Source: Limimaricola cinnabarinus
GTDB lineage: Bacteria > Pseudomonadota > Alphaproteobacteria > Rhodobacterales > Rhodobacteraceae
NCBI RefSeq assembly: GCF_002723615.1
Contig: NZ_KZ304962.1
Location: 1 to 64,000 of the forward strand
Reading direction: 5' to 3'
Length of the DNA: 64,000 nucleotides
The notes beneath the pieces were generated by a model. The model was not told the origin of the DNA. It did not search any database and worked only from the letters and a program-made list of their open reading frames with translations. Every line of letters begins with the position of its first letter. The first letter of the stretch is position 1. The position numbers and the translations under genes were made by a program. Below are positions 1-8,745 of the stretch, one piece after another.

Positions 1-1368
1 GCGCAGGCGGCGGGTGGATCCGTGGCAGCCCGTCCAGACAGGATGCTCAAAAACCTTGCGGATCTCGCTAAGACTAAATGGCTTTCGGTCGTCCCGGGCT
101 CGACGGTGGGATCGAACACGCAGCTTGTCTAGCTTAATGCTTGAGCTGACCGGAATGCCGTCGCTTTCCGCTCTGTCGAGCAACTGTTTCAGCAGGCCAA
201 GATTGCGGTTGATCGTTGCAGCGCTCAGACCTCTTTTCTCGGCGGGCAGGTCCGCTGCAGCCTCGATGATCTGCGGCACCGTGAGGTCACGATCCTTCGG
301 GCTTTTTCCCCAGCTTTTGGGAAGCTTGTAATGGGAATCCCTGAAGCGCGCGCAATGCCTATGGTTCAGGTTTCGGATATCGCTGATCCCTGTGACCTGC
401 TGCAGGATTCGGGCTGCGGTCATGATCTGCGTTTGAAACTTCTCGTCGACGCCGTCACGACTTTTGTCATCGACCAAACGAGCACAGACTGCGTCAATCC
501 GACTATCGTATTCGAGGTCATCGGAAGGCACGTCTTCCTTGGTTTCCATGGTCGTCAATGCAATGTCCGAGCGCTCAGTCGTGCAAGCCTCGTTACCTGC
601 TGCGGGCTGGACTGGTAACGGGTTGGTACCGCGATCCATCGCAGGATCCGCGCAAGGAGGGGCATAGGCTGCGGTCATGGCCTCCCTCCTGATTTCAGCA
701 GCGAGAGTGATCTCGGGGCTGATGTCGTCGGAAGCGTTCGCGGCTGCGCTTTCGAGGTAAGCCGCAGCGCGCCCCTTTAGAATGATCTGGCGGGCAGTGA
801 TCAAGTCGAGGGCTGACAGGTTCCGCCGACCAATGGCCTCGGAGGTCTTGCGACCGATCAGGCCCGTCCATGATCGAGAAAAATACGCGTCCCGCAGAAC
901 GTCCATATGGGCGACGACGGAGTTGCATTCCTCCTCGCTCAGTCCCTCCTGCGCAAGCGATTGCCGGTCCTGTTCGCTGAAGTGTGCCGACTGGCCACGG
1001 GTCGCCACTAGCCTATGCGCATGTCCCGATACGAGATCGGCCCGCCGTTCCGCCTCGACCGCGTTCGGCGCGCCATCTGCGAGAGCGAGAAGCTCATGCT
1101 TTGCAATCTGAGCCTGCGCGTCGCGCAAGCTATGCTCCAGCAGACGCCGGGCCTCTTCGGGGGAAAGGTTTTCGTGTTCCATGGCCCAAAATACAGCTTC
1201 GCTCTGCGCTGTCACAATAGCGGCGAGACGCCTAGCGGCCGGTAATCCACAGGTTTGTAAGCTCAATTGCATTACGGCAGGCGCTCCACGCCTGACCAGC
1301 GTGCGAGGCAGTCGACGGCGCCACGTATAGACGGCGCCTCTTCGGAAGACATGGTTCATTGCGGTCAT
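1..1368 (-). CDS. Site-specific tyrosine recombinase/integrase, 5' part (runs off the left edge)
   Basis: The minus strand is open without a stop from near 1455 to the first base of the window, giving at least 456 codons. The start chosen (MTAMNHVF) has GGAGG five bases upstream; an in-frame ATG lies four codons earlier. The N-terminus carries RRGAVYTWRRRLP, typical of the short N-terminal domain found on large rhodobacterial integrases. A long helical middle region follows. Residues about 290-430 look like the SAM-like core-binding domain (ATINRNLGLLKQLLDRAE), then a catalytic-domain entry (RKPFSLSEIRKVFEHPVWTGC). The catalytic Arg/His/Tyr residues would lie beyond the edge. The gene starts 132 bases from the 3' end of tRNA-Gln and points away from it, the usual arrangement of an integrase with its tRNA target. 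Base composition is visibly less GC-rich than the flanking genes, which suggests acquired DNA. Confidence 0.85.
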   Translation of the reverse strand, partial: MTAMNHVFRRGAVYTWRRRLPRTLVRRGAPAVMQLSLQTCGLPAARRLAAIVTAQSEAVFWAMEHENLSPEEARRLLEHSLRDAQAQIAKHELLALADGAPNAVEAERRADLVSGHAHRLVATRGQSAHFSEQDRQSLAQEGLSEEECNSVVAHMDVLRDAYFSRSWTGLIGRKTSEAIGRRNLSALDLITARQIILKGRAAAYLESAAANASDDISPEITLAAEIRREAMTAAYAPPCADPAMDRGTNPLPVQPAAGNEACTTERSDIALTTMETKEDVPSDDLEYDSRIDAVCARLVDDKSRDGVDEKFQTQIMTAARILQQVTGISDIRNLNHRHCARFRDSHYKLPKSWGKSPKDRDLTVPQIIEAAADLPAEKRGLSAATINRNLGLLKQLLDRAESDGIPVSSSIKLDKLRVRSHRRARDDRKPFSLSEIRKVFEHPVWTGCHGSTRRLR

Positions 1369-1426
1369 GCCACCCTCCATCGAGAGCAGGCCGTCCGAGA
1401 TCCCCGTCATCCAGTGCTGCACCGTG

Positions 1427-1447
1427 GTGTGACAGCTCTGTGTGACA
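1427..1447. repeat. Direct repeat GTGTGACA x2 upstream of the integrase
   Basis: Two identical 8-bp copies, GTGTGACA at 1427-1434 and 1440-1447, lie 13 bp apart start to start, between the integrase start and the tRNA-Gln 3' end. Position and spacing fit either recombinase arm-type sites or an operator for a regulator of the integrase. Both roles are inferred; only the repeat is seen. Confidence 0.4.
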
Positions 1448-1499
1448 TGCCCCAGTCACGTTTAGGGGCATCAACAATATCAATGACTTAGGAAAAACC

Positions 1500-1574
1500 T
1501 GGCTGGGGTGGTAGGATTCGAACCTACGGTACACGGTACCAAAAACCGCTGCCTTACCACTTGGCTACACCCCA
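1500..1574 (-). tRNA. tRNA-Gln (anticodon TTG)
   Basis: The minus strand folds into a complete cloverleaf. The 7-bp acceptor TGGGGTG pairs with CACCCCA, the discriminator is G, and an encoded CCA follows. The T arm contains GGTTCGAATCC and the anticodon loop reads TTTTGGT with anticodon TTG. Length is 75 nt including CCA. Its 3' end faces the integrase gene, so it is the likely attachment site of the element that extends to the left. The tRNA itself is intact. Confidence 0.97.
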
Positions 1575-2628: not shown

Positions 2629-4296
2629 TCAGCTCGAGACCTGCTCGCGCAGGATCGAGACGGTGAGCGACAGCATCAGGTAGATGCCCGAAAAGATCAG
2701 CAAGGCCAGCGCCGTGTTCTCGAGCGCCTTGGGATAGGTCGCCTCGTCGGGCGCCACCGGCTCGACCCCGAGCGACAGGTAGCGCACCTGCCGGTTGGCC
2801 TCGATCTGCGCGGCCTCCATCTGCTGCAGCGCCTGCTGCACCAAGAGCGTCTGGAAGCCGTAATCCTCCTCGGCCAGCCGCAGCTCGGTGTTGCGCGCGG
2901 CGAGCGATGAGCCCGCCTCCGAGGCTTCGGTCATCTCGCGGCGCAGATCGGTGATCAGCTCCTCGATGCCCGCGATCTGGCTCTTGATCGAATTCACCTG
3001 CGCCTCGTTGGGGCGACGCACGGCGAGCCGGGTCTGCAGCTCCAGCTGCAGCTGCTGGCGCTGCGTCTCGAGCGCCGAGATCTGCTGGGTGCGCGCCGCC
3101 GTCTCGCCCACCGGGTCGATCTGCTGCACCTCCTCCTGGATGCGCAGCCAGTTGGCCAGCGCCTCGGCCCGGCGCGCCTCGGCCGCCTCGTAGCTGTCGC
3201 GCGCGCCCTGCATCTGGTCGTTGCGCAGCCGCGCGGTGAGCTGGTCGACCTGCTCCTCGGCATAGCCCAAGAGCGCCTCTGAAAACCGCTGCGAGGTTTC
3301 GGGGTCGGGCGCGATCACCTCCATCTTCACGATCCCCTCGGTCGGATCGTAGGAGATCTTCACATGGTCCTGGTAGAGGTCGTAGGCGGCCTCGTTGGTG
3401 GCGGGCTGGTGGAGGCGTTGCAGCGGGTCGATCGCCGGGTCGGAGAACACCTGCTTGAAGCCTTCCTCCTCGTCGAGCCGCACCATCGCGGCGCGCGAGG
3501 TGAGGTAGGACTGCACGGTGATGCTGTCCTGCTGGGTCGCCATCGAGGTGCCCTGGAACAGCCCGCCCAGCCCTGCGCCGCTTTGCGGCTCGGCCTGCTG
3601 GATGACGAATTCCGAGCGGGTGGCGAACATCGGCGTGGCGACGGCGAAGAAGTAATACCCCGCCAGAACCGTCGGCAGCAGCACGAAGAGCATCAGCCGC
3701 AGGCCCAGAAGCGCCATCCGACGACGACGACGACGGGCGAGATCGCGCTGGATGCCGCGGATCTCGGAGGCGCGCTGCTCGGCCGGGTCGGCCCGCTCGG
3801 TCGAGGGCAGCTGCCGGTCGCCCTCCGGCACGGTCGAGGGCAGCTGCACGCGCGGCGCGGGCACGGGGGCGGACGCAGACGCGGACGCAGTCTTGTCCTG
3901 CTCCTGCTCGGGCACGACCAGCTCGATGATGTTCGAGCGCTGGAACGGGTCCACCCCGAGCGCGCGCAGCTGGCGCACCGCGTCGAAATCCGACGCCACC
4001 TCCAGCCCCTGCTTTTGCGCCACCCGTCGGGCCATGCGCAGCTGCCGGCCGGTCAGCCCCTCGCGGCGGATCTTGTCGATGTCGTGCTCGGCCTCGGTGG
4101 CGACAGCTTCCTCGACCGAGGCCTCCTGCTGCGGCAGGCGCTGCTGGAGCGGGTGCATCGTCACGGCGGCGGGGGCGGGGCGGGCCTCCATCGCGGCGGC
4201 GGCGGCGGCGCGCGCGGCCTCGGGATCGGCGGGCCGGGGTGCGAGCGGCGCGCCGGCGCGCAGCCGGTAACGGGTCACCTTAGGCGTGGTAGTCAT
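2629..4296 (-). CDS. kpsE: Capsule polysaccharide export inner-membrane protein, KpsE/CtrB family
   Basis: This is the polysaccharide co-polymerase/adaptor of an ABC-type capsule exporter, linking the inner-membrane transporter to the outer-membrane channel across the periplasm. From start MTTTPKV the protein has 555 aa. Residues 1-190 form an extended cytoplasmic region that is Ala/Pro-rich, with a conserved-looking block LTGRQLRMARRVAQK at 81-95 and DPFQRSNIIELV near 116. An arginine run precedes the first membrane segment (about 194-219), a long coiled-coil periplasmic part follows, and a second membrane segment lies near 525-549. The N-terminal extension is far longer than in E. coli KpsE (about 380 aa) but usual in Rhodobacterales as I recall. 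The start overlaps the end of kpsT by 17 bases, indicating coupled translation. Confidence 0.88.
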   Translation of the reverse strand: MTTTPKVTRYRLRAGAPLAPRPADPEAARAAAAAAMEARPAPAAVTMHPLQQRLPQQEASVEEAVATEAEHDIDKIRREGLTGRQLRMARRVAQKQGLEVASDFDAVRQLRALGVDPFQRSNIIELVVPEQEQDKTASASASAPVPAPRVQLPSTVPEGDRQLPSTERADPAEQRASEIRGIQRDLARRRRRRMALLGLRLMLFVLLPTVLAGYYFFAVATPMFATRSEFVIQQAEPQSGAGLGGLFQGTSMATQQDSITVQSYLTSRAAMVRLDEEEGFKQVFSDPAIDPLQRLHQPATNEAAYDLYQDHVKISYDPTEGIVKMEVIAPDPETSQRFSEALLGYAEEQVDQLTARLRNDQMQGARDSYEAAEARRAEALANWLRIQEEVQQIDPVGETAARTQQISALETQRQQLQLELQTRLAVRRPNEAQVNSIKSQIAGIEELITDLRREMTEASEAGSSLAARNTELRLAEEDYGFQTLLVQQALQQMEAAQIEANRQVRYLSLGVEPVAPDEATYPKALENTALALLIFSGIYLMLSLTVSILREQVSS

Positions 4297-4933
4297 AAAG
4301 CTCGCGCGCCTCCTCGAGACTGTCGAACATGTGCAGACGGCCATGCCGCAGCACCGCGGCCTGCCGGGCAAAGCGCTCCAGCGTCTGCGGCTGGTGCGAG
4401 ACGATGATCACCGTCGTCGTCTCCAGCCGCTCGCGCAGGATTTCGCCGGCCTTGCGGTTGAAGGCGGCATCCGTGGTCTGCGGCATGCCCTCGTCGATCA
4501 GGTAGATGTCGAAATCCAGTGCCAGCATCAGCGAGAAGGTGAAGCGCGCGCGCATCCCCTGGCTGTAGGTGCCGACGGGCCGGTCGAAATATTCCTCGAT
4601 GCCGCAGAGCCAGCGGCAGAAGGCCTCGACGTAGTCGGGATCGAGCCCGTAGAGCCGGGCGATGTAGCGCGCGTTCTCGCGCGCGCTGTGGCGCGGCACC
4701 ACCCCGCCCATGAAGCCCAGCGGAAAGGAGATCCGGCAGCCGCGGATGATCTTTCCCTCGTCGGGCTTTTCCAGCCCGGCCATCATGTTGATCAGCGTGG
4801 TCTTGCCGGTGCCGTTGGAGGCAAGAATGCCGAGCGAGCGGCCCAGCTCGACCCGGAACGAGGCCCGGTCGAGGATGATCTTGCGCTGCTTGCCGGTCCA
4901 GAAGGACTTGCTGACCTGGTTGAATTCGAGCAT
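4280..4933 (-). CDS. kpsT: Capsule polysaccharide ABC transporter ATP-binding protein, KpsT/CtrD family
   Basis: ATPase of the capsule exporter, 217 aa from MLEFNQVSK; the start is supported by GGGGAG seven bases upstream. Walker A is ASNGTGKTT (residues 38-46), the signature is YSQGMRARF and Walker B is IYLIDEG, followed by MPQTTDAAF. This IDEGMPxTDxAF block is characteristic of the KpsT family. The permease KpsM and outer-membrane KpsD are not adjacent and must be elsewhere if the exporter is functional. It is first in a two-gene minus-strand unit with kpsE. Confidence 0.9.
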   Translation of the reverse strand: MLEFNQVSKSFWTGKQRKIILDRASFRVELGRSLGILASNGTGKTTLINMMAGLEKPDEGKIIRGCRISFPLGFMGGVVPRHSARENARYIARLYGLDPDYVEAFCRWLCGIEEYFDRPVGTYSQGMRARFTFSLMLALDFDIYLIDEGMPQTTDAAFNRKAGEILRERLETTTVIIVSHQPQTLERFARQAAVLRHGRLHMFDSLEEARELYDYHA

Positions 4934-5188
4934 GTGCTCCCCGCTTCGGCACCCGGCTGTCAATGCCACGACCGACCTTCGGGGTCGATCCGGGCTTCCA
5001 TGATTCCGATCTAGGACCGGTTTATGGCGAAACGACGCCTAAATCCTTACCAAATCGGGGGAATGTTTCCGCGCAGGGGCGCATCCCGCGGCGGGGCCGC
5101 CCGGCGCCTGCCGTCCCGATGCGGCGAAACTTCCGCACCGCTCATGCGTTTGGAGGGCGAACCCCCTTCAGCCGAAAGGAACGTCATC

Positions 5189-5263
5189 ATGCGCAAGTTC
5201 GTCAAGTATTTCGCCATCTGGAAGCTGGCTCGCAAGGTGCTGCGCGGCGGTCGCCGGGCGTGA
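5189..5263 (+). CDS. Predicted 24-residue basic amphipathic peptide
   Basis: A short ORF encoding MRKFVKYFAIWKLARK followed by VLRGGRRA. It is preceded by AAAGGA eight bases before the ATG, a good ribosome-binding site. Nine of 24 residues are Lys or Arg, and they alternate with aromatic and aliphatic residues so that a helix would have one charged and one hydrophobic face. It lies in the 370-base gap between the divergent kpsT and the UDG-like gene. I recognise no family. It could be a membrane-active small protein, a leader peptide or a chance ORF; the strong RBS is the main argument for translation. Confidence 0.45.
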   Translation: MRKFVKYFAIWKLARKVLRGGRRA

Positions 5264-5304
5264 GCCCGCATGTCGGCGGCGGGCGGGCCGCGAGGTAGGC
5301 GGCG

Positions 5305-5892
5305 ATGGAGAAGCTGCATGCCGAGCTTTCCGCCTGCCGCCTGTGCGCCGACCGTTTCGCCGCCACCGCGACGCGGCACGCGCCGCGCCCCGTCGTCTGG
5401 TTTCGCCCCGGTGCAAGGCTCCTGATCGCGAGCCAGGCGCCGGGGCTTCGTGTGCACGAGGCGGGCACGCCCTTCTGGGACCGCTCGGGCAAGCGGCTGC
5501 GCGACTGGCTCGGCATGGACGAAGAGACCTTCTACGACCGCAGCCGCGTCGCCATCGTGCCGATGGCCTTCTGCTTTCCGGGATATGACACCAAGGGCTC
5601 CGACCTGCCGCCGCCGCCCATCTGCGCGCAGGTCTGGCGCGATCGCGTTCTGTCGGAACTGACCGACATCCGCCTCACCGTGCTGATCGGCGGCGCGGCG
5701 ATGAACTGGCATCTGGGCCGCGGGCCGGGCGTGACCGAGCGGGTGCGGCAATGGCGCGACTTCGGCCCCGGCCTCTTTCCCTTGCCTCATCCCTCGTGGC
5801 GCAATACCGCGTGGATCAAGCGCAACCCGTGGTTCGAGGCGGAGGTTCTGCCCGCGCTCAAGGCGCGCGTGCGCGAGGTGATGGAGGATTGA
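5305..5892 (+). CDS. Uracil-DNA glycosylase superfamily protein
   Basis: A 195-aa protein with the UDG-like fold. The N-terminus has CRLC (Cys11, Cys14), motif A region ASQAPGLRVHEAGTPFWD, a central block FCFPGYDTKGSDLPPP and the C-terminal motif PHPSWR, equivalent to the DNA-intercalation loop of UDGs. Members with this pattern are usually annotated as uracil-DNA glycosylase-like proteins. Only two of the four Cys ligands used by Fe-S family 4/5 UDGs are obvious, so an Fe-S cluster is uncertain. The next gene starts two bases after its stop, so the two are likely co-transcribed. Confidence 0.85.
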   Translation: MEKLHAELSACRLCADRFAATATRHAPRPVVWFRPGARLLIASQAPGLRVHEAGTPFWDRSGKRLRDWLGMDEETFYDRSRVAIVPMAFCFPGYDTKGSDLPPPPICAQVWRDRVLSELTDIRLTVLIGGAAMNWHLGRGPGVTERVRQWRDFGPGLFPLPHPSWRNTAWIKRNPWFEAEVLPALKARVREVMED

Positions 5893-5894
5893 GC

Positions 5895-6674
5895 ATGGAA
5901 ACCGGACTGGACGTGGCCTCGGCGGCCATGCAGGCCGCCCCCGAGGACGACGCGGCGCGGCTGCGCTATTACGGCCGTCTCGCGGATGCGGAGCTTTACC
6001 TGCTGCTCGCCGACGAGGCGGGCGAGGAAAGCGTGACCCCGGTGACCATCGAGGAGGCGGGGCAGAGCTATGCCGTGGCCTTCGACCGCGAGGAGCGGCT
6101 GTCCGAATACGCGGGCGCCGCCGCCTTTCACGCCGCCGTGCCGGGCCGGGCGCTGGCGCAGATCCTCGGCAGCCAGGGCCTCGGCCTCGCGCTCAACCCG
6201 CGCGTGGCCCCCTCGGCGCGGCTTTTGCCGCCCGAGGCGCTGACATGGCTGGCCGAGACGCTGACCCATGCGCCGCAGGAGGCGTCAGAGCGCCCCGTCG
6301 CGGTGAACCCGCCGCGCGACGTCTCGGAGGCCCTGCTCGCCGCGCTCGACGAAAAGCTGACCTCGGCGCGCGGGCTGGCGCGCGAGGCGTTCCTCGTCCG
6401 GGTCGAATATGCCGATGGCCGCGAGGCGCCGCTCCTGGCCTTTCTCGACCCCGCGCCCATGGCCGAGCGCGGCCTCGCCGTCGCGGTGGGCGAGGCGCTG
6501 ACCTTTTCGGGGCTGGAGGAGGGCGCGCTCGACGTGACCTTCCTCGAAAGCCAGACGGAGACCGCGCGCCGCATCGCCCGCGCCGGGCTGCGGTTGAAGC
6601 TGCCGCAGCCGCATGTCACCCCCGGCCCCAAGGCGCCCGGCACCGACCCCGAAAAGCCGCCCCGCCTGCATTGA
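5895..6674 (+). CDS. SseB family protein
   Basis: A 259-aa soluble protein of the SseB family, whose bacterial members are mostly of unknown function (the name comes from an E. coli protein implicated in serine sensitivity). The N-terminal half shows the family pattern YYGRLADAELYLLL, then VAFDREERLSEYAG and AAFHAAVPGRALA. A second, degenerate repeat follows, containing FLVRVEYADG and LLAFLDPAP. A Pro-rich tail ends the protein. The start METGLDVAS follows the upstream stop by two bases, so translation is probably coupled to the UDG-like gene. Confidence 0.85.
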   Translation: METGLDVASAAMQAAPEDDAARLRYYGRLADAELYLLLADEAGEESVTPVTIEEAGQSYAVAFDREERLSEYAGAAAFHAAVPGRALAQILGSQGLGLALNPRVAPSARLLPPEALTWLAETLTHAPQEASERPVAVNPPRDVSEALLAALDEKLTSARGLAREAFLVRVEYADGREAPLLAFLDPAPMAERGLAVAVGEALTFSGLEEGALDVTFLESQTETARRIARAGLRLKLPQPHVTPGPKAPGTDPEKPPRLH

Positions 6675-6677
6675 GGC

Positions 6678-7604
6678 TCAGTAGCCGCGCGCCCGGTCCA
6701 CGAGGTGCAAAAGCGGCTCGCCCGCCTCGGCGCGGCGGATGTTCTCGACGATCACCTGTGCTGCGGTGGCGGGCCGCGTGGCCGAGGCGACATGCGGCGT
6801 CACGGTGACGCGCGGATGCGCCCAGTAGGGGTGGTCGCGGGGCAGCGGCTCGGTGCGGAACACGTCGAGCGTGGCATGGCCGATCCGGCCCGTGTCGAGC
6901 GCCGCGAGCAGCGCGTCATCGTCGATCAGCGGGCCGCGGCCGGGGTTGATCAGCGCGGCCCCCCGCGCGGGCAGGGCGAGGCGCGCCGCATCGAGCAGGT
7001 TCTCGGTCTCGGGCGTCAGCGGCAGCAGCGTCACGACGATCTGCGCGCCCTCCAGCGCCTCCGAAAGCCCATCCTCGCCCGACAGGCAGCGCAGCCCCTC
7101 GATCCGCTTTTGCGTCCGGCTCCAGCCCGTCACCGGAAAGCCCAAGCCCGCCAGCGCCTGCGCGCAGGCCCGGCCCAGCGCGCCGAGGCCCAGCATGGTG
7201 ACGGGCCGGTCGGCGGCGAGAGGCGGCGCTTCGGGCGTCCAGTCCTGCTCGGGGTTCACCACATGCGCGTCCATCCCCAGATGATGGCGCAGCGCGTGGC
7301 CTGCCACGTATTCGACCATGCCGCGCTCCAGCCCGTCATCGACCATGCGGGCGAGCGGCTGGGTCAGCGTCGCGTTGCCGACGATCCGCTCCACCCCGGC
7401 CCAGAGCGACAGCACGGCGCGGGCGCGGATGAAGGGGGTGAAGTCGCGCAGATCGTCATTGGGCGCATAGACGATGTAATCGACCGTCCCGGGCGCGGCC
7501 TCGCGCACGACCTCGGCCTCGATGCCGGCGCGGGCCAGCGCGGAGGGGAGCAGGTCGCGGTAGTCGGCCCAGTTGCTTTCGGGGGCGGAGAACAGGATCT
7601 TCAT
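6678..7604 (-). CDS. ghrA: Glyoxylate/hydroxypyruvate reductase A
   Basis: A 308-aa member of the D-2-hydroxyacid dehydrogenase family that reduces glyoxylate and hydroxypyruvate with NADPH in the cytoplasm. The Rossmann motif GLGALG is at 139-144, followed by GWSRTQKRIEG, which suits an NADP-binding loop. The substrate/catalytic blocks NPGRGPLIDDDALL, DVFRTEPLP and TPHVASAT carry the expected Arg, Glu and His. The start MKILFSAPE lies one base after the rodA stop, so it is the last gene of the elongation cluster transcript. This gene order is common in Rhodobacterales. Specificity is inferred from the GhrA-like sequence. Confidence 0.9.
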   Translation of the reverse strand: MKILFSAPESNWADYRDLLPSALARAGIEAEVVREAAPGTVDYIVYAPNDDLRDFTPFIRARAVLSLWAGVERIVGNATLTQPLARMVDDGLERGMVEYVAGHALRHHLGMDAHVVNPEQDWTPEAPPLAADRPVTMLGLGALGRACAQALAGLGFPVTGWSRTQKRIEGLRCLSGEDGLSEALEGAQIVVTLLPLTPETENLLDAARLALPARGAALINPGRGPLIDDDALLAALDTGRIGHATLDVFRTEPLPRDHPYWAHPRVTVTPHVASATRPATAAQVIVENIRRAEAGEPLLHLVDRARGY

Positions 7605-7605
7605 G

Positions 7606-8745
7606 TTACCTCGGCTTGTGGACATGCGCGCTCTGCACCAGCCCGAAGGCCAGGAGCAGCACCAGCATCGCAGAGCCGCCATAGCTCACCAAGGGCAGCG
7701 GCACGCCGACGACGGGGGCAAGGCCCATCACCATCGACATGTTCACCGCGAAGAACAAAAAGAACGTCATGGTGATGCCGATCGTCAGCAGAGAGGCGAA
7801 GCGGTCGCGGTTGTTCACCGCGGAGGCGACGCAGAAGAAGATGATCAGCGCGTAGAGTGCCAAGAGCGTCGAGGCGCCGACGAAGCCCAGCTCCTCGGCC
7901 AGCGTGGTGAAGATGAAATCGGTGTGCTTTTCGGGCAGGAAATTGAGCCGGCTCTGCGTGCCCTGCATGAAGCCGCGCCCGGTCCAGCCGCCCGAGCCCA
8001 GCGCGATCTTGGCCTGTGTGATGTGGTAGCCCGCGCCCAGGGGGTCGTTCGAGGGGTCGAGAAAGGTGTCGATCCGGCGATACTGGTAGTCCTTGAGGAG
8101 CTGCCACGACGTTCCCCGTGAAACGAAGACGGCATAGACCGTGCCGACGCCGGCGGCGATCACGGTGGCGAAATAGGCCCAGTGGACGCCGGCGGCGAAC
8201 ATCACCGTCGCCCCGCCGATCAGCAGCAGAAGCGCGGTGCCGAGATCGGGCTGCGCCAGCGTCAGCAGCGTCGGGATCGAGATGAAGACCACCGGCAGCA
8301 GCACCCAGAAGATATGCGAGGTGCGCCTGAGCGGCAGCCAGTCGTAATAGGCGGCCAGCAGCATCACGAGGCTGACCTTCATCAGCTCGGAAGGCTGCAA
8401 CCGGATCGGGCCGAGGTCGATCCAGCGCTGCGCGCCCATGCCGACCGTGCCGAACATGTCCACCGCCACCAGAAGCGCGAGCGAGCCGCCATAGGCCAGG
8501 AGCGCCATGTTGCGCCAGAACCAGATCGGCACCATGGCGACGATGATCATCGCCACCATGCCGACGCCGAAGCGCTTCATCTGCGGCTCCATCCAGGGCG
8601 TGGGCGAGCCGCCGGCCACCGAGTAGAGCATCAGGAAGCCGAAGCCGCAGACCGCCGAGATCAGCAGGATCACCGGCCAGTTGAGGTAAAGCAGCTTGCG
8701 AAACCCGGTGGGGACGAACTTGGCATTGGCTTCGAGGTAGCTCAT
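7606..8745 (-). CDS. rodA: Peptidoglycan glycosyltransferase RodA
   Basis: A SEDS-family membrane protein of 379 aa that polymerises lipid II during lateral wall growth together with PBP2. About ten hydrophobic segments are visible. Conserved SEDS blocks include GAQRWIDLGPIRLQPSELMK, AQPDLGTALL, the loop with LNFLPEKHTDFIFTTLAEELG and PLPLVSYGGSAML near the C-terminus. The start MSYLEANAKF was chosen because it follows the mrdA stop by one base; longer upstream reading is a shadow of mrdA. Confidence 0.96.
   Translation of the reverse strand: MSYLEANAKFVPTGFRKLLYLNWPVILLISAVCGFGFLMLYSVAGGSPTPWMEPQMKRFGVGMVAMIIVAMVPIWFWRNMALLAYGGSLALLVAVDMFGTVGMGAQRWIDLGPIRLQPSELMKVSLVMLLAAYYDWLPLRRTSHIFWVLLPVVFISIPTLLTLAQPDLGTALLLLIGGATVMFAAGVHWAYFATVIAAGVGTVYAVFVSRGTSWQLLKDYQYRRIDTFLDPSNDPLGAGYHITQAKIALGSGGWTGRGFMQGTQSRLNFLPEKHTDFIFTTLAEELGFVGASTLLALYALIIFFCVASAVNNRDRFASLLTIGITMTFFLFFAVNMSMVMGLAPVVGVPLPLVSYGGSAMLVLLLAFGLVQSAHVHKPR

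Follow-up and report, generated by a model that had tools for sequence, protein, structure and literature searches.

The stretch of DNA analysed here (the window, 64,000 nucleotides) comprises bases 1-64000 of contig C12 in a 67-contig, 3.80-Mb draft Limimaricola genome (G000). At its left edge, an integrase gene that runs off the contig lies beside the 3' end of a tRNA-Gln(TTG) gene, raising the question of whether the assembly breaks off within an integrated element and, if so, what kind of element this is, where its other end lies and what it carries. For comparison within the genus we used a set of eight Limimaricola genomes (G000 to G007), in which G001 is treated as L. cinnabarinus LL-001 and G002 as L. 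hongkongensis DSM 17492. The relevant features of the window are:

1500..1574, minus strand: intact tRNA-Gln(TTG) gene, with its 3' end as the target (ARAGORN)
1494..1516, no strand assigned: tRNA-side attachment repeat, an exact 23-bp direct repeat of C26:23200-23222 (whole-genome DNA search and longest common string)
1..1422, minus strand: 5' part of a type A tyrosine recombinase gene, 474 of 667 aa, cut by the contig end, with the rest at C27:5-586
1177..1353, minus strand: DUF6538 domain, integrase aa 24-82 (Pfam PF20172, 39.3 bits against a cut-off of 27)
1..1, no strand assigned: end of contig C12, the element apparently continuing in C27 and C26, outside the window

A sequence-only reading of this DNA had described a minus-strand frame open from about 1455 to base 1, and this is confirmed: counted stop-free, the frame spans 485 aa, and from the GTG at 1422 it runs to base 1 without a stop for 474 aa. 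The distance of 132 bases given there to the tRNA-Gln 3' end holds if measured from an internal ATG at 1368, but from the GTG it is 77 bp. A Pfam domain search recovers no catalytic domain within the window, because base 1 of the window is also base 1 of C12 and the gene is cut there. With the 667-aa L. cinnabarinus integrase as query, residues 1-474 map to C12:1-1422 and residues 474-667 to C27:5-586 (both at 94%), and the other matches in G000 are two on C1 at 30-31%. By the gene order of the relative, the end of C12 and the start of C27 have three bases in common; the C27 start also carries four bases absent from the relative's integrase gene at the junction, which are taken as a contig-end flaw. 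On either contig the integrase frame is uninterrupted, and the C27 piece contains the motifs TGAR, HSLRH, GHAGR and RYGD, which we take to be the catalytic residues (R, HxxR, H and Y). The full L. cinnabarinus relative matches the phrog_1 integrase of PHROGs with 80.3 bits and PF00589 with 21.4 bits, the latter below its cut-off of 27.1. Hence, the proposed check of the catalytic domain by profile comes out positive for the motifs and phrog_1, but not for the Pfam model. On these motifs and the phrog_1 match, the protein cut at window base 1 is predicted to belong to the tyrosine recombinases/integrases, and the earlier call of a large tyrosine recombinase holds, with its DUF6538-containing N-terminal part in the window and its catalytic motifs in the C27 piece.

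The other end that the sequence-only reading had foreseen, marked by a second copy of the tRNA-Gln 3' end, does exist. A search of the whole genome with the tRNA junction (E up to 0.001) returned four matches, namely the junction itself, one on C26, a tRNA-Pro gene and a tRNA-Ser gene. The C26 match contains the exact 23-bp copy, on the minus strand of that contig; no tRNA was found around it, and the 15-base core of the repeat has a single occurrence in each of C26 and the window and is absent from C27. A tRNA-integrated element is recognized by an intact tRNA whose 3' end recurs as a direct repeat at either end of the element, and both features are seen here. On its element side, the C26 attachment (att) copy repeats the tRNA end in inverted orientation (C26:23200-23230, CTGGGG/CCCCAG), as does the element side of the distal att near 743-767 of locus L113 (TGGCTCCG/CGGAGCCA); such inverted tRNA-end repeats, present at some distal att copies, are perhaps a pair of core-binding sites for the integrase.

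The connection between C27 and C26 is provided by a single gene. The N-terminal part of a PreP-type M16 protease (PF00675; 241 aa, of which residues 2-230 match 21-259 of 2fge) is encoded at the end of C27, and an M16 C-terminal part (PreP_C; residues 829-963 of 2fge) at the start of C26. The C26 half of this gene occurs in two of 61 genomes, G000 and G006. Both pieces have close counterparts in G006: contig G006:C230 matches C27:6182-29717 (23.5 kb) at 98.6% identity, and G006:C384 matches C26:1-1256 at 97.7% and extends the M16 frame by 200 aa upstream; the end of G006:C230 has no direct overlap with C26. Together, the M16 halves and the C384 extension indicate that the gap between C27 and C26 holds at least ~0.6 kb of a very GC-rich gene, and that the element measures ~55 kb. 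The best explanation of these data is a layout of C12:1-1516, C27 (29.7 kb), a gap of ~0.6 kb and C26:1-23222, in which we infer both contig joins and which places the two att copies ~55 kb apart; only ~1.5 kb of the element falls inside the window. The C27 M16 piece was also considered as PqqF, but with 20.8 bits against a cut-off of 320 it was not assigned to that family.

The lower GC content noted by the sequence-only reading is real in 1-1499 (59.2% vs 69.5% in 1601-64000), but it does not extend across the element: C27 has 67.7% GC overall and its PQQ region 70.5%. Low GC thus marks the integrase-proximal part only and was rejected as a limit of the element. Elsewhere in the window, 17703-19211 matches G006 in many shifted registers and, therefore, contains internal repeats.

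As had been anticipated, the element carries accessory genes, those for PQQ/alcohol oxidation and transport lying on C27 and C26. C27 codes for PqqB, PqqC and PqqE (pqqB/C/E), a PQQ-dependent alcohol dehydrogenase, the acetaldehyde dehydrogenase ExaC and a pseudoazurin, all above their NCBIfam cut-offs. The nearest solved structures to the dehydrogenase are 6zcv and 6zcw, and it keeps the motif WDFDGVNE with both Asp residues. According to an excerpt of PMC11845868, 6ZCW is PedH, and the second Asp marks rare-earth enzymes. The PedH/ExaF type is defined by a second metal-binding Asp two residues past the first; the predicted cargo enzyme has this residue and is probably rare-earth-dependent. 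Its likeness to the lanthanide-dependent ethanol dehydrogenase PedH/ExaF, as described in that excerpt (PMC11845868), thus covers both its best solved relatives and the two Asp of the motif; unlike PedH/ExaF, it sits on a putative mobile island, alongside pqqB/C/E and an aldehyde dehydrogenase of the ExaC type. The dehydrogenase is found in three of the eight Limimaricola genomes (G000, G006 at 100% and G001 at 95%). To the right of the tRNA, G000 and G006 share four long matches at 83-87% identity; set against this background, the 98.6% identity of the PQQ region indicates that this stretch moved recently. In G006:C384 (L124; reverse strand, 3586-8115 after reversal), next to where the shared PQQ region ends, we recognized by eye two tyrosine and one serine recombinase-like genes, which may have carried the region. 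Nearer to the integrase, C27:3743-4594 (L019) encodes a Ser/Thr kinase matching PD-T4-6 defence kinase models (best 172 bits); kinase models being broad, this match may be generic.

C26 contributes a sugar-type ABC transporter cluster that includes an oxidoreductase of the Gfo/Idh/MocA type and a protein resembling xylose isomerase, and part of G001:C120 matches C26:11901-20000 at 96% identity. The genes that come first inside the integrase in L. cinnabarinus (L024:12375-14040) are predicted to encode a GmrSD_N/DUF262-type protein (NsnA model, 115.7 bits) and an unassigned 202-aa protein, a different cargo in the same place. In L. hongkongensis, SoxX, A, B and C lie beside the type A integrase. 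The idea that Sox is a cargo peculiar to the L. hongkongensis element is weakened by the presence of SoxB in six of the eight genomes (93-98% in the five besides G002; absent from G000 and G004).

A scan of named genomes for the integrase returned two loci, in L. cinnabarinus LL-001 (94%) and L. hongkongensis DSM 17492 (85%). Within the genus set, the type A integrase occurs at tRNA-Gln in three of the eight genomes (G000, G001 and G002; 85-100% to the L. cinnabarinus protein), and so the same integrase is not at the same place in all relatives, in line with the mobility proposed by the sequence-only reading. A distant type B integrase occupies the position in G005, G006 and G007; the one of these that was scanned, from G005, contains DUF6538. 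In G003, an N-terminal piece of a type B-like gene adjoins istA- and istB-like genes (judged by eye), bringing to four the genomes with an integrase lineage other than type A at this tRNA. In G004 no integrase lies beside tRNA-Gln and the neighboring DNA is itself variable, with a LysR gene there in one of the eight genomes; a clean empty site was not found among the eight. The flank common to G004 and G007 is present in seven of the eight genomes (missing from G001), and in G000 and G002 it is located in the interior of long contigs, well away from their ends; hence, chromosome order differs and this flank is uninformative about an empty site.

Distal att copies were found in six of the eight genomes, all except G003 and G004. 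At the inner ends of these copies, the three type A genomes have one sequence type in common and the three type B genomes a second one, an agreement of six in six that has chance odds of 1 in 20 and is weak by itself. Outside the distal att, G001 has the N-terminus of a type A integrase, truncated by the contig end, G005 has a type A remnant containing a stop, and G007 has upstream sequence resembling that of type A; in both G002 and G006 the remnant found there is N-terminal and type B-like. Outside the C26 att of G000 we found no integrase remnant, but just sequence resembling what precedes the remnants in G002 and G006. As the same flank type precedes an integrase N-terminal remnant in those two genomes, plain chromosome is not the simplest reading of the DNA beyond the C26 att. 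The recurrence of integrase-proximal DNA of other elements outside the distal att implies that elements stack at this tRNA, and new arrivals seem to land at the tRNA, pushing older elements out. This agrees with the published accretion of integrative and mobilizable elements (IMEs) and decayed elements, as far as it is set out in the excerpted text of PMC5704250. Hence, the tRNA-Gln place is a serial integration hotspot rather than a one-island site: as the edge of an integrated element it stands as an island end, but not as the end of a single island.

What kind of element ends here is addressed by a backbone block of 6.6-7.2 kb, represented by C26:5039-11664 at 90% in G001:C180 and by C26:4668-11894 at 84% in G002:C5, in each case on the same contig as the distal att. 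No match to the block was reported in G003 to G007, with 37 candidates scored per genome; further partial copies occur in G000 itself, on C18 and C47 (82%), so that the block is not confined to this site. The block encodes a DUF6035/CoiA nuclease-like protein, an AAA+ protein with an M41 domain, a NikA-like protein and a relaxase, the last of which is not a phage trait. The relaxase frame, recognized by comparison with G001, is open over 478 aa in G000, has matches of 90% in G001 and 82% in G002, and scores 30.6 bits against PF03432 (cut-off 24.6); the NikA-like match reaches 24.1 bits, short of its cut-off of 27. Among 72,556 plasmid records searched with the relaxase, there were two weak partial matches. 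The proteins of C26 and C27 that were scanned represent part of the frames, and among them we detected no mating-pore/conjugation-pore genes, no type IV secretion genes in general domain scans, and no phage structural genes with Pfam and NCBIfam; PHROGs was applied to seven proteins, five from this kind of element and two others. IS-type transposases are present inside the element, in both C27 and C26, and may be a sign of decay. Within the same block, C26:5059-8906 (L021) places the DUF6035/CoiA nuclease-like gene beside that for the 797-aa AAA+/M41 protein, which matches the defence ATPase IetA (84.6 bits), and this predicted gene pair, located in the backbone of three genomes, could be a defence pair. 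As a separate observation, both ends of the 750-kb scaffold G002:C5 (1-20586 with the integrase end, and 672258-750699 with the distal att and backbone) seem to lie within the same element, which may reflect a circular replicon, a rearrangement or a scaffolding effect.

An IME is distinguished by having an integrase of its own and its own relaxase or oriT, and the element has predicted genes for an integrase and a relaxase. In our assessment, window 1-1516 is quite probably the tRNA-proximal end of an IME of ~55 kb. Such an element would be joined at its att site to the tRNA-Gln(TTG) 3' end by the DUF6538-bearing tyrosine recombinase with the tRNA left whole, a recombination point suggested by the two att copies and the intact tRNA. 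It would probably excise as a circle, which its own relaxase could nick with the NikA-like helper and which, as the scanned proteins include no pore component, would exit through a conjugation pore supplied by another element. The next element to arrive could insert at the tRNA end and so displace its predecessor outward.

The IS-type transposases of C27 and C26 could also suggest that the island was integrase-borne once, and that IS insertions and gene loss have left it as a resident metabolic island incapable of excision or transfer. The recently shared 98.6% stretch (C27:6182 to C26:1256) fits this as well, as its borders lie inside the element and not at the att sites, and so its move may have used another carrier. 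However, with an integrase frame that is open on both contigs, a relaxase frame that is open and conserved in three genomes, and two att copies that are exact over 23 bp, we consider an immobile island unlikely. The relaxase and its helper are also what one would expect of a full integrative and conjugative element whose own secretion system was partly lost in the assembly gap or missed by the scans, which took in part of the frames; but the ~0.6 kb missing between C27 and C26 is too small to hold a secretion system and pore genes are absent among the C26 and C27 proteins scanned, making this very improbable. That C27 and C26 are foreign to the element, the assembly split hiding some other arrangement and the C26 att being the end of a different element, is hard to credit: although no contig spans either join and related partial backbone copies lie elsewhere in G000, the integrase and the M16 gene each run across a join, and the distal-end type matches the integrase type in all six genomes with a distal att. 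A prophage or prophage remnant is the least credible of all, since, although the tyrosine recombinase at a tRNA matches a PHROG integrase and prophages of the same broad bacterial group, the roseobacters, are reported in tRNA genes, tRNA-Gln among them (excerpt of PMC8224337), the element differs from these in having a relaxase and in that the scanned proteins of C26 and C27 include no phage structural protein.

The IME reading makes the element a member of a kind already known, notable for its cargo and with a history of stacking. Tandem accretion of IMEs and CIMEs is already described in the excerpted text of PMC5704250, and the elements treated there share with ours a single tyrosine integrase at a tRNA 3' end, a relaxase without pore genes seen, stacked neighbors and the use of the same target by distantly related integrases. 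Ours is unlike them in its DUF6538 integrase, its alphaproteobacterial host and its large metabolic cargo, and its movement and function are predicted from sequence. In the open-licence literature we found no paper naming DUF6538 and none combining Limimaricola with pyrroloquinoline, and the excerpted text of PMC12016528 describes no Limimaricola genomic island. What appeared as the edge of a draft assembly becomes an element to which two ends, a gene for transfer and a clear cargo can be assigned. The site offers a natural layered array, and the position of an element within it may reveal its relative age; the contents suggest that a marine bacterium can acquire PQQ-dependent, and probably rare-earth-dependent, alcohol oxidation as one package.

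Beyond the genus, we surveyed 394 Rhodobacteraceae genomes, nearly one per genus, with three candidates scored per genome. At least 15 of these, the own genome included, have integrase matches at E 1e-60 or better. The 14 others contain 17 loci, ten beside tRNA-Asn(GTT), three beside tRNA-Gln(TTG) and four without a tRNA. At each of the 13 loci with a tRNA, it lies on the strand of the integrase and at its 5' side; at all four tRNA-less loci, the integrase is preceded by a bare tRNA-Asn 3' end, which is what pushed-out elements would be expected to show. More distant integrases within Limimaricola lie beside tRNA-Cys, tRNA-Ser and tRNA-Asn. In a tree of 25 integrases, in which two rows have long branches and uncertain places, types A and B stand apart, and hence the tRNA-Gln site has been used by more than one lineage. 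On this tree the Gln label is clustered (four changes against a shuffled mean of 6.9, as low in 6 of 500 shuffles) and the Asn label is not clearly so (seven against 8.4, as low in 105 of 500), with long branches and near copies limiting both tests. It is a serious, if still tentative, possibility that these integrases define an unnamed alphaproteobacterial IME family, in which DUF6538 recombinases would have specialized for tRNA-Gln/tRNA-Asn 3' ends, with the elements stacking at one tRNA and passing a lanthanide-dependent alcohol-oxidation module and PQQ-making genes between species of a marine genus. In other genera, very similar integrases also occur in pairs, L115 and L121 in G020 (both on C1, 118 kb apart) and L108 and L119 in G093. 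One member of each pair lies beside a full tRNA-Asn and the other beside a bare tRNA-Asn 3' end, and both pairs are likely tandem arrays.
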